Source: Thermoplasmata archaeon (GTDB lineage: Archaea > Thermoplasmatota > Thermoplasmata > Lutacidiplasmatales > UBA184). From it: a DNA stretch of 52,331 nt. Below the pieces are notes generated by a model, which was not told the origin of the DNA, did no database searches, and saw nothing but the letters and a program-made list of their open reading frames with translations. The position numbers and the translations under genes are program-made. Position 1 is the first letter of the stretch, and every line of letters begins with the position of its first letter. Below, piece by piece: positions 18,637-20,926 of this stretch. The stretch lies in the NCBI GenBank assembly GCA_027365105.1, contig DAHXNZ010000011.1:1-52331 (forward strand), given 5' to 3'.

Positions 18637-18680
18637 GGCAAGCCGCCGGCCGAGGGCGAGACATAGTCCCTGGGCGCGAT

Positions 18681-18734
18681 GCGCTCCGGGCGCCCCGGCG
18701 GCTGGTCGCCGGGGGCTCGGCGCCCGGGGAGCGC
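18681..18734. repeat. strong imperfect inverted repeat after the orphan cassette
   Basis: GCGCTCC (18681-18687) pairs with GGAGCGC (18728-18734), and GGGCGCC (18688-18694) pairs with GGCGCCC (18719-18725), with a 2-base bulge. Inside, CCGGCG (18695-18700) pairs with CGCCGG (18707-18712). That is 20 base pairs in 54 bases. It lies between the convergent orphan cassette and the toroid-fold gene, so it may be a terminator, a structured RNA or a cassette boundary. Confidence 0.5.
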
Positions 18735-18774
18735 GCAAGGGAACCGGGGGCTTCCCAGCGGGTCCCGACGAGGC

Positions 18775-19731
18775 TCACTCCCCGACCCGGTCGAGAATCC
18801 GAAGCGCCGTGAGGGTGATCATCCGGCTGGGCCGGCCCGGGGTCTCGAGCGCGAGCGGCGTCGGCCGGTCCTTCGGGTGGGCCGCAAACCACTCGGCGGT
18901 CCGGCCCTCCACGTCGGGGTGGTGGGCATCGAGATTCCACCGGCCGTCCTTCCGCCGCTTCCTCCGCAGCAGGTCGAGCGCGAACCGCAACCGCCGGTCG
19001 TCGCCGTACCCGAGCGAAGTCAACACGTCGAGGCCGACGAGGACGTCGTAGTAGTAGTGGACCGGGTAGTGGAACCGTTGCCACGGGGGGTAGGGATCGC
19101 CCTGGAGATGGAGTTCCCGGTCGAGAAAGAACCCGGCCGCCCGCTCGACGCACGCCGCATCCGAGGGCCGCCACTTCGATCGAGGATAGGCCGCGAACGC
19201 GCTCAGCCCTTCCCACGAGTCCAGGTTGCGCCCGCGGCCAAAGCAGGACCAGCCGCCCCGGGGATCGGCGGTCTCCACGAGCCAGTCGAGGCTCCGGCGG
19301 ACCCGGGGGTCCTCCCCGTACCCGAACCGGATCGCCGCCCGGGCGAGGTTGCCCACGACGCAGTGGTGGCCCGTGCCCTTGGAGTTCCCGCCGAGCCCTC
19401 CGCCGGCGAGAGGGAACCCCGTGAACCAGTATTCGCAGGACCGGGCCACCTCGGGATCCTCGCGCGTGAGACCGAGGTCGGAAAGGACGAGCATGCTCCA
19501 GTTTGTCGAGAGGTATTTCGGGAGGTAGCAGGACCGGTCGATGGCCCAGCCGCCGGTGGAGTCCCGGCCGGCGAGGAGCCGGGCGGCCCAGCCCCGCCGC
19601 GGGATCTCGGCCCGTGCGCGGACGACCTCCGGATCGCTTTGGGGGCGGCCGTCGAGCTCGGTGAGGGTGCGATACCGTATCGCCGGCTCGACCGGATCCT
19701 CGAGCCAGTCGAGAACCGCTCGGCTCACCAT
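18775..19731 (-). CDS. prenyltransferase/squalene-oxidase-like toroid-fold protein
   Basis: A 318-residue protein with repeats typical of the alpha/alpha toroid of terpenoid cyclases and prenyltransferases. Gly-Gly-Trp repeats are visible (DSTGGWAID, DPRGGWSCFGRG, KDGRWNLDAHH), as are helix pairs containing RAAIRFGYGEDPRVRRSLDW. It lacks a recognisable DxDD or QW catalytic set of squalene-hopene cyclase. Related archaeal and bacterial proteins are usually annotated only by fold. It is upstream-convergent with the orphan cassette and lies near uppS, but has its own TATA box 26 bp before the ATG. Role unknown. Confidence 0.75.
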   Translation of the reverse strand: MVSRAVLDWLEDPVEPAIRYRTLTELDGRPQSDPEVVRARAEIPRRGWAARLLAGRDSTGGWAIDRSCYLPKYLSTNWSMLVLSDLGLTREDPEVARSCEYWFTGFPLAGGGLGGNSKGTGHHCVVGNLARAAIRFGYGEDPRVRRSLDWLVETADPRGGWSCFGRGRNLDSWEGLSAFAAYPRSKWRPSDAACVERAAGFFLDRELHLQGDPYPPWQRFHYPVHYYYDVLVGLDVLTSLGYGDDRRLRFALDLLRRKRRKDGRWNLDAHHPDVEGRTAEWFAAHPKDRPTPLALETPGRPSRMITLTALRILDRVGE

Positions 19732-19753
19732 GGGCCCGGGAGTCCGGCCCGGG

Positions 19754-19761
19754 CTATGAAT
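19754..19761 (-). promoter_or_regulatory. TATA-like box of the toroid-fold gene
   Basis: The minus-strand ATTCATAG is centred about 26 bp before the ATG at 19731, consistent with leaderless transcription. Confidence 0.4.
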
Positions 19762-19947
19762 CCCTCGCAGCAGAGAGCGGGGGAGGCCGGTCCAGATACG
19801 GCTCAGGGCCCGGGTCTCGGGTATCCTCGACCGGGACCACCATTCGCCGGCCGCGGGTCGGGTCCCGGGCCGTGGGCTCCGGAGGGGGCCCGGGGCCGGG
19901 GCGCGTCGGGGCCGGCGGGAACCCGAACCAAAGCCTGCCCGGGCACC

Positions 19948-19968
19948 GTCCCCGCCTGCCCCGGGGAC
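19948..19968 (-). terminator. candidate hairpin after uppS
   Basis: GTCCCCG (19948-19954) and CGGGGAC (19962-19968) form a 7-bp stem with a 7-base loop, starting 3 bases beyond the uppS stop. There is no T-run, so a role in mRNA 3' end stability is as likely as termination. Confidence 0.3.
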
Positions 19969-19971
19969 CGG

Positions 19972-20772
19972 TCAGTGGCCGTAGCGGCGCCGTCGGGTCT
20001 GGTAGGCCCGGATCGCCCGCAGGAAATCAAGCTCGGTGAGCCCCGGCCAGAGGACGTCCGAAAAGTAGAGCTCGCTGTAGGCCGACTGCCAGAGCAGGAA
20101 GTTCGAGATCCGCTCCTCCCCGCTCGTCCGGAAAACCAGATCGGGGTCGGGAAGGTCGGCCGTGTAGAGGTTCTGCGCCACGAGTTCGGGGGTGATCTGC
20201 TCCGGTTCCAGCCGGCCGGCCCGGACCTCCTGGGCCAGCCGGCGGATCGCCTCGACGATCTCGTCACGGCCCCCGTAGGCGATCGCCACGTTGTAGAAGT
20301 ACTGGTCGTACCGGGCCGTCGCCTCCTCGGCACGCCGGATGGCCTCCTGGACCCGGACCGGCAGCGCGGCGCGGTCGCCGATGGCCCGGACCCGGATCTG
20401 GTGGCGGTGCACCCGCGCGTCGGTCGCAATCTCGTCGAAGCTGCGGGTGAACAGGTCCATCAGCACCTCGAGCTCCTCGGGGGGCCGGGCAAAATTCTCC
20501 GTCGAGAGGGCGTAGACGGTCAAGATCCGGATCCCGACGTCCAGGCACCAGTTGAGCAGCTGTTCCAGGGTGTCCCGGCCCTTGCGGTGCCCTTCGGTGG
20601 CGAGCAGTCCATGGGCCTCGGCAAACCGTCGGTTGCCGTCCATGATGATCGCGAGGTGCCGCGGGACCGGTTCCGACTTCACCAGGTCGAGGAGCCGCCG
20701 TTCGGTCGCCTGCCGGATGGCGTCCCCGACGACGTGGGAGAGGTAGGCCGGCGGTCGCGGCTCGTCGGGCAT
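19972..20772 (-). CDS. uppS: polyprenyl diphosphate synthase (UppS/cis-prenyltransferase family)
   Basis: Condenses isopentenyl diphosphate in cis to make the polyprenyl lipid carrier used in glycan assembly. The 266-residue protein has all family regions: HLAIIMDGNRRFAEAHGL with the catalytic Asp (about residues 39-56), GHRKG, TVYALSTENFARP, and the C-terminal RTSGEERISNFLLWQSAYSE followed by LYF. The N-terminus has a 38-residue extension before the fold, as in other archaeal members. A TATA-like box 26 bp upstream supports the start. It follows the tRNA-Asp gene on the same strand. Confidence 0.95.
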   Translation of the reverse strand: MPDEPRPPAYLSHVVGDAIRQATERRLLDLVKSEPVPRHLAIIMDGNRRFAEAHGLLATEGHRKGRDTLEQLLNWCLDVGIRILTVYALSTENFARPPEELEVLMDLFTRSFDEIATDARVHRHQIRVRAIGDRAALPVRVQEAIRRAEEATARYDQYFYNVAIAYGGRDEIVEAIRRLAQEVRAGRLEPEQITPELVAQNLYTADLPDPDLVFRTSGEERISNFLLWQSAYSELYFSDVLWPGLTELDFLRAIRAYQTRRRRYGH

Positions 20773-20793
20773 GCCGGGGGGAACGCCGGTCTA

Positions 20794-20802
20794 GGAATAA
20801 CC
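20794..20802 (-). promoter_or_regulatory. TATA-like box of uppS
   Basis: The minus-strand GGTTATTCC is centred about 26 bp before the uppS ATG and lies just 3' of the tRNA-Asp gene. Confidence 0.45.
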
Positions 20803-20821
20803 GTTGGGGGTCGTCCCGGAG

Positions 20822-20926
20822 CGCCCTGGTCGGGAGTTCCGGAGGAGAGCCGCAGACTCCCGCATCCTTCGAACCCGAGTTCCAGGCTCGACAGGCCTAG
20901 ATCCTAGACCACTAGACTACCAGGGC
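20822..20926 (-). tRNA. tRNA-Asp (anticodon GTC) interrupted by a 32-base intron in the T loop
   Basis: After intron removal the 73-base tRNA folds perfectly. The acceptor stem is GCCCTGG/CCAGGGC and the D stem GTCT/GGAT with two wobbles. The anticodon stem is TAGGC/GCCTG with loop CTGTCGA, giving anticodon GTC. The variable loop is GAAC, the T stem TCGGG/CCCGA, the T loop TTCGAAT and the discriminator G. CCA is not encoded. The uninterrupted gene would fail a standard tRNA search because the T loop is split between positions 59 and 60. A weak TATA-like TTGATAG lies about 28 bp upstream. Confidence 0.93.
20836..20867 (-). other. archaeal tRNA intron with bulge-helix-bulge splice motif
   Basis: The intron splits TTCGAA|T in the T loop. 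On the transcript the T stem is the outer helix. TTCG pairs with CGGA as the 4-bp central helix, with one wobble. The 5' bulge is AA^G and the 3' bulge is AC^T. The inner helix is GA/TC followed by GGGAG/CTCTC around a 7-base loop. Both bulges are 3 bases on opposite strands with cuts after the second base, exactly the substrate of archaeal tRNA splicing endonuclease. Confidence 0.88.

Follow-up and report, generated by a model that had tools for sequence, protein, structure and literature searches.

The window, a stretch of 52,331 nucleotides from a Thermoplasmata archaeon, carries on its minus strand a tRNA-Asp(GTC) gene that is interrupted in the T loop by a 32-nt intron and that adjoins a gene of the undecaprenyl-diphosphate-synthase family (UppS) (Table 1). 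The joined exons form a 73-nt molecule which ARAGORN reads as a complete tRNA-Asp(GTC), a call that the unspliced precursor does not receive. Acceptor and T stems of the spliced tRNA are fully paired, and the anticodon stem contains one U-G. The insertion falls between positions 59 and 60, a non-canonical intron site, and its junctions lie in a bulge-helix-bulge (BHB) motif in which all four pairs of the central helix TTCG/CGGA are formed, the bulges read AA^G and AC^T, and the T stem acts as outer helix.

Table 1. Features of the tRNA-Asp locus (positions in the window) and other tRNA genes of the host genome, G000, with an intron at 59/60 (contig:position)
Feature	Position	Strand	Remarks
tRNA-Asp(GTC) gene	20926→20822	minus	5' end 20926, 3' end 20822
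Exon 1, tRNA positions 1-59, 59 nt	20868..20926	minus	acceptor 5' strand, D arm, GTC anticodon arm, T stem 5' strand, T-loop TTCGAA; ARAGORN call on spliced tRNA-Asp(gtc)
TTCG, positions 54-57, 5' strand of central helix	20870..20873	minus	pairs with CGGA 20841-20838; unconstrained RNAalifold agrees
Intron at 59/60 (T loop), 32 nt, GGATGCGGGAGTCTGCGGCTCTCCTCCGGAAC	20836..20867	minus	in order: 5' bulge base, inner stem-loop, CGGA, then AC of the 3' bulge; tRNA restored on removal
CGGA, intron-side strand of central helix	20838..20841	minus	CGRR in 45/45 distinct genus introns
Exon 2, tRNA positions 60-73, 14 nt	20822..20835	minus	T60, T stem 3' strand CCCGA, acceptor 3' strand, G73
UppS gene	19972..20772	minus	PF01255, E=6e-81; adjoins the tRNA gene
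Other 12 genes with a 59/60 intron, part 1	C168:59502, C157:24327, C201:51894, C110:28163, C110:12543, C190:24006		
Other 12 genes with a 59/60 intron, part 2	C121:1356, C123:8465, C157:29900, C135:5449, C135:~5254, C11:36775		

An earlier note, made from the sequence of the window, had proposed just such a T-loop BHB intron, with bases 20836-20867 to be removed across a 4-bp helix and 3-nt bulges. This proposal is borne out and its coordinates for the gene are correct, to which we add the strand, left unstated there. The same note called the inner stem-loop stable; the structure is real (2 bp, an internal loop, then a hairpin), but in the tRNA-Asp copy it is the least regular part of the motif. 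The expectation that the gene would escape tRNA finders also held, since neither ARAGORN nor Rfam at the gathering cut-off detected a tRNA in the window, where RF00005 scored 19 bits at best, and only in part. The euryarchaeal type of the host was likewise confirmed.

Most related UppS loci have a tRNA-Asp within 3 kb, and the relatives concerned, UBA184 included, are Thermoplasmata MAGs; UppS is a conserved neighbour in these relatives and stands outside the splicing system. The relatives belong to the order Lutacidiplasmatales (PMC9287336), in which the host, judged by them, would also be placed. A 742-aa open frame (window 18679-20907, plus strand) lies antisense to UppS and reaches into the tRNA gene; high GC content is its most likely cause. 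One record titled 'bacterium isolate clean3188' (DAIDCO010000070.1, our locus L070) contains the lineage's UppS together with a tRNA-Asp bearing the T-loop intron, and looks like a mislabelled archaeal MAG.

Conservation and covariation within the genus

In the same genus, 33 other genomes match the 105-nt precursor over its full length, G023 has at this site an intron that has diverged further, and the exon 2 sequence (TCCCGACCAGGGCG) occurs in all matched genus loci. From 58 loci we obtained 45 distinct introns of 28-34 nt, every one of which (45/45) keeps the 4-bp central helix. The exons are 97% identical, against a mean of 64% in the hypervariable middle of the intron. The inner hairpin exceeds dinucleotide-shuffled sequences in stability (mean MFE z -2.5; 42 of the 45 below -1), and the arms of an intron form a stronger duplex with each other (-16.2 kcal/mol on average) than when swapped between species (-9.7 kcal/mol).

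Folded without constraint by RNAalifold, 23 T arms returned the T stem, the 4-bp helix and two 3-nt bulges, that is, the BHB. In these arms 91% of cells are paired, against 81% in shuffled and 20-65% in slid controls. The pair count exceeds 500 of 500 shuffles in both pairing and covariation score, and 0 of 5000 permutations of the intron arms came near the observed total, although such permutation figures overstate the strength of the case because related sequences are not independent. Relatedness alone does not explain the pairing, since the slid controls preserve it and yet fall well below the observed value. Taken together, the genus pattern indicates selection on a splicing structure. A chance match was considered and is excluded by the conservation and covariation across the genus; the intron pattern, moreover, has nine matches in the host genome against 0 for its reversed form, and forward matches greatly outnumber reversed ones throughout the genus.

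T-loop introns in the host genome and its relatives

The host genome, a MAG of 1.83 Mb in 201 contigs and 97.5% complete, was examined by searches and by stretches. Among the 43 tRNA genes found, 19 (~44%) contain introns, 21 in all: 13 at exactly 59/60, four in the D loop and four at 37/38, which makes 17 non-canonical. The 59/60 introns are carried by Asp, Glu(CTC), Arg(TCT), Arg(TCG), Ser(CGA), Ser(GCT), Ser(GGA), Asn, Gly(TCC), Ala(GGC), Gln(CTG), Leu(TAG) and Lys(TTT). This set surfaced from a search for missing tRNAs, and most of the 12 genes other than tRNA-Asp are missed or poorly scored by standard tRNA models. Once the T-loop intron is removed ARAGORN names 11 of the 13, Leu(TAG) and Lys(TTT) requiring that a D-loop intron be taken out as well. 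Initiator Met and Arg(GCG) are the other two tRNAs with an intron in the D loop; in each of the four the central helix is complete at 4 bp and the bulges measure 3 nt. The canonical 37/38 introns are those of Met, Tyr, Leu(TAA) and Trp. The tRNA-Trp gene (L264, C111:117649) has a 92-nt intron at this position; elsewhere among archaea, tRNA-Trp introns harbour a box C/D guide RNA.

The 13 T-loop motifs differ in how completely the central helix is formed. Four have all 4 bp, eight have three pairs and a purine-purine contact, and one (Lys) is mismatched at position 54. The contact in question involves position 57, next to the 5' bulge, and tRNA-Asp is not among the 8/13 introns that show it. 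Opposite G57 in TTCG T loops the intron usually gives C, the exception being Asn, which gives A. Opposite A57 in TTCA T loops, introns of family f1 give G and not U (7/7 in the host genome), a choice also seen in tRNA-Asp genes of the family; more distant relatives mostly give U there (6/8). By these pairings the T-loop motifs count as canonical or near-canonical, not all of them strictly canonical.

In genera of the same family, every tRNA-Asp found has the 59/60 intron and no intron-free copy was seen. Elsewhere in the order, the tRNA-Asp of family f2 has no intron, and that of G050 (family f3) combines a 14-nt T-loop intron with a 37/38 intron. Within the family of the host, two genera have an intron in tRNA-Glu(CTC) and four lack it, from which we conclude that introns were gained stepwise. 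All 20 candidates with 59/60 introns fetched at class level read as tRNAs, and 17/20 candidates from other Thermoplasmatota families (f30, f48) verify as such; because the pattern demanded exact bases in the T loop and at the junctions, its counts across the phylum are minimum figures for such introns, and they include some chance matches, as judged from reversed controls. The tRNA-Asp intron is thus one of 13 at 59/60 in its genome and recurrent in the phylum, and not an isolated oddity. In most class lineages inspected Lys(TTT) has a 59/60 intron, often along with one in the D loop. A T-loop intron with an apparent D-loop intron was observed in the tRNA-Lys(TTT) genes L175 (C11:36775), L228, L230, L235, L242, L243 and L245, from several families of the class, and the pair may be ancestral.

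The tRNA-Gly(TCC) and tRNA-Arg(CCT) genes of G154 (L275, L277) carry an identical 45-nt 59/60 intron, and copying between tRNA genes is therefore indicated; near-identical introns in different tRNAs occur in G207 and G152 as well. The two 34-nt introns concerned in G152 (L278, L279) have the hairpin centres CTTTG and CAAAG, seemingly exchanged, as would follow from an inversion of the loop. We consider the chances evenly balanced that T-loop introns pass from one tRNA gene to another as mobile sequences or through gene conversion, at no benefit to the host, with selection acting only to keep them spliceable, and that they do so by RNA-mediated transposition or recombination, possibly via attP sites. 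Besides the pairs just described, this account draws on the acquisition, within the family, of an intron by tRNA-Glu(CTC) after tRNA-Asp had one, and on a precedent in the Thermoproteales (Fujishima 2010, as cited in PMC4033280). It is opposed by the host genome itself, whose 13 introns are not clear copies of one another (mean similarity 0.40 versus 0.34 when shuffled; best pair 0.61). Recent transposition within the host genome is unsupported by the same comparison.

The splicing endonuclease and the T arm

The earlier note had asked whether the endonuclease is of a heteromeric or broad-specificity type; the one found appears to be neither. EndA is encoded by one gene, whose single reading frame of 354 aa contains two endonuclease repeats (two PF01974 matches), and no separate alpha or beta EndA gene was found in the host genome. 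The other aligned EndA sequences of the class have the same single-chain, two-repeat layout (349-363 aa). Y292, H300 and K331 in the C-terminal repeat are invariant in 12 sequences and match the known catalytic Tyr, His and Lys, the N-terminal repeat being without the Tyr and His. Among solved structures, the M. kandleri fusion 5x89 and the A. fulgidus dimer 2gjw come nearest to the predicted one (pLDDT 91). Judged by its sequence, the enzyme is of the alpha'2 type, with two repeats in one chain and putative catalytic residues only in the C-terminal repeat. RtcB is also encoded in the host genome (E=6e-165).

It seems rather unlikely that EndA of this lineage gained a broad specificity like that of crenarchaeal or ARMAN enzymes and so permitted the introns. 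The purine-purine mismatch in the central helix of 8/13 T-loop motifs would be consistent with such a gain. Yet the single-chain, two-repeat layout is maintained class-wide, the alignment revealed no extra loop in intron-rich genomes, and no insertion near the active site was found on alignment to the M. jannaschii alpha4 EndA. A CSL or ASL loop with Lys, the mark of broad specificity, thus appears to be lacking. The motifs themselves further weaken the case, as the four in D loops and that of tRNA-Asp are fully canonical.

The arrangement that we favour is as follows. In the pre-tRNA, the T stem would serve as outer helix and positions 54-57 (TTCG) would pair with the intron's CGGA in a 4-bp central helix, setting the junctions in 3-nt bulges. 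The single-chain, two-repeat EndA, presumably as a homodimer, would cleave both bulges, and RtcB would ligate the exons to yield the normal TTCGAAT T loop; the 12 other tRNAs in the host genome would be served in the same manner. Any tRNA T arm consists of a stable stem and a near-universal TTCR, and would in this sense be half a canonical motif. An insert at 59/60 which starts with the bulge base and ends with the four-base complement of TTCR and two further bases would complete a canonical motif in any tRNA. Because T arm and insert together form such a motif, even an enzyme confined to canonical substrates could process non-canonical 59/60 introns. The T arm's contribution of half the motif would likewise be the reason, we infer, that 13/17 non-canonical introns lie at one site. 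A narrow-type EndA and unusual intron positions could thereby be reconciled, the motifs at these positions being canonical or near-canonical.

An extension of this arrangement, which we advance tentatively and hold at somewhat less than even probability, is that the Thermoplasmatota contain a phylum-wide population of T-arm introns that moves between tRNA genes into 59/60 and is processed by a homodimeric, narrow-type EndA adapted to the purine-purine pair. If true, this would run contrary to the rule that non-canonical introns accompany heteromeric or loop-bearing enzymes.

The concentration of introns in the T loop (13 of the 17 non-canonical ones) invites another explanation, namely that they persist by breaking the T-arm attachment site of integrating elements and so shield the tRNA genes. 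The proposal is that of Randau and Soll, as cited in PMC3293823, and the T stem-loop is among the three tRNA-gene regions used by integrases (PMC8371274). We nevertheless think it improbable here. One pattern scan of IMG/VR contigs with tRNA-Asp exon 1 gave no match and no viral carriers, no element is known to target exon 1, integrations in Thaumarchaeota do use intron-bearing tRNA genes, and the BHB constraint alone accounts for the intron position.

The tRNA-Asp gene and its setting among archaea

Searched with tRNA-Asp, the host-genome DNA gave matches only to the gene itself and to tRNA-Glu(CTC). A second intact tRNA-Asp, which the earlier note had named as the sign of a decaying copy, was sought in this 97.5%-complete genome by that search, by a tRNA family scan and by an intact-T-arm scan, and none was found. 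One may still have been overlooked, because the MAG is in 201 contigs and tRNA-His, tRNA-Pro(TGG) and tRNA-Pro(GGG) were not found in them either; these missing genes may lie in gaps or have introns at other positions. A decaying tRNA-Asp copy with a chance insertion, left unprocessed, would suit a gene overlooked by standard finders but is scarcely credible given that the genome searches found no intact second tRNA-Asp, and given a same-site intron with compensatory changes genus-wide, and exons intact at 97% identity. A tRNA pseudogene is similarly ruled out by conservation, covariation and single copy, there being no relaxed constraint. We are highly confident that the locus is a functional and, as far as found, the sole tRNA-Asp gene, which would be transcribed with its 32-nt 59/60 intron and spliced by EndA and RtcB. 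Since the gene is, as far as found, single-copy, the central helix is kept in 45/45 introns and the inner hairpin covaries, the intron is under selection and presumably spliced, as opposed to marking a decaying copy.

Position 59/60 is a listed intron site, and reports of non-canonical introns come chiefly from Crenarchaeota and Nanoarchaeota (PMC4090602). According to reviews, tRNA introns are few in those Euryarchaeota that have α4 or α2 enzymes, and occur singly in a gene, at the canonical 37/38 (PMC4090602); non-canonical introns are linked in reviews to endonucleases of broad specificity, and α'2 enzymes are described as narrow (PMC6379350, PMC12397907). In 2014, Korarchaeum was called the sole archaeon to combine non-canonical introns with an α2 enzyme (PMC4033280). 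Training of tRNAscan-SE 2.0 took in some euryarchaeal non-canonical introns (PMC8450103), so that introns of the 59/60 kind may already be annotated in databases. Introns go unmentioned in the main text of the Lutacidiplasmatales paper (PMC9287336). While 59/60 introns are already known, their prevalence in Thermoplasmatota appears undescribed in the partial set of literature searched.

Comparison with known systems delimits what is unusual in the present one. Thermoproteales such as Pyrobaculum also have short BHB introns, 59/60 included, often several per genome and copied between tRNAs (PMC4090602, PMC4033280, PMC8450103), but their EndA is heterotetrameric and of broad specificity and their introns occupy many positions, as against a single-chain alpha'2 enzyme and 13/17 non-canonical introns at one site here. 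Korarchaeum cryptofilum shares the combination of non-canonical introns and an alpha2-type endonuclease (PMC4033280); its enzyme reportedly has the crenarchaeal specificity loop, whereas the aligned Thermoplasmata EndA sequences are without such an insertion. The alpha'2 EndA of Archaeoglobus fulgidus and Thermoplasma acidophilum resembles ours in its single chain, two repeats and C-terminal catalytic residues and is described as narrow (PMC6379350), yet here it is the sole EndA found beside 17 non-canonical introns. Caldiarchaeum subterraneum, likewise bearing D-, V- and T-arm introns, belongs to a different phylum; intron gain there was modelled via element integration (PMC3293823), whereas no integrated element is linked to the introns here. 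Finally, the Asgard Atabeyarchaeia and Freyarchaeia, archaea of wetland soil, also have tRNA sets rich in introns, often at non-canonical positions (PMC11291895), though 92-95% of their tRNA genes have introns, against ~44% here, concentrated at 59/60.

The host is a soil archaeon in a group whose tRNA introns were described as almost always beside the anticodon. Its lineage breaks the positional part of the rule that ties introns to enzymes and largely keeps the part concerning the motif, whereby intron position becomes separable from the motif that the enzyme needs. The model of their co-evolution is made testable by one enzyme and ~17 natural substrates. Where finders miss T-loop introns, tRNA counts and completeness estimates of Thermoplasmatota MAGs will be too low. 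Beyond the tRNA-Asp locus itself, the part worth following is the phylum-wide concentration of introns at a single site in company with an α'2 enzyme.
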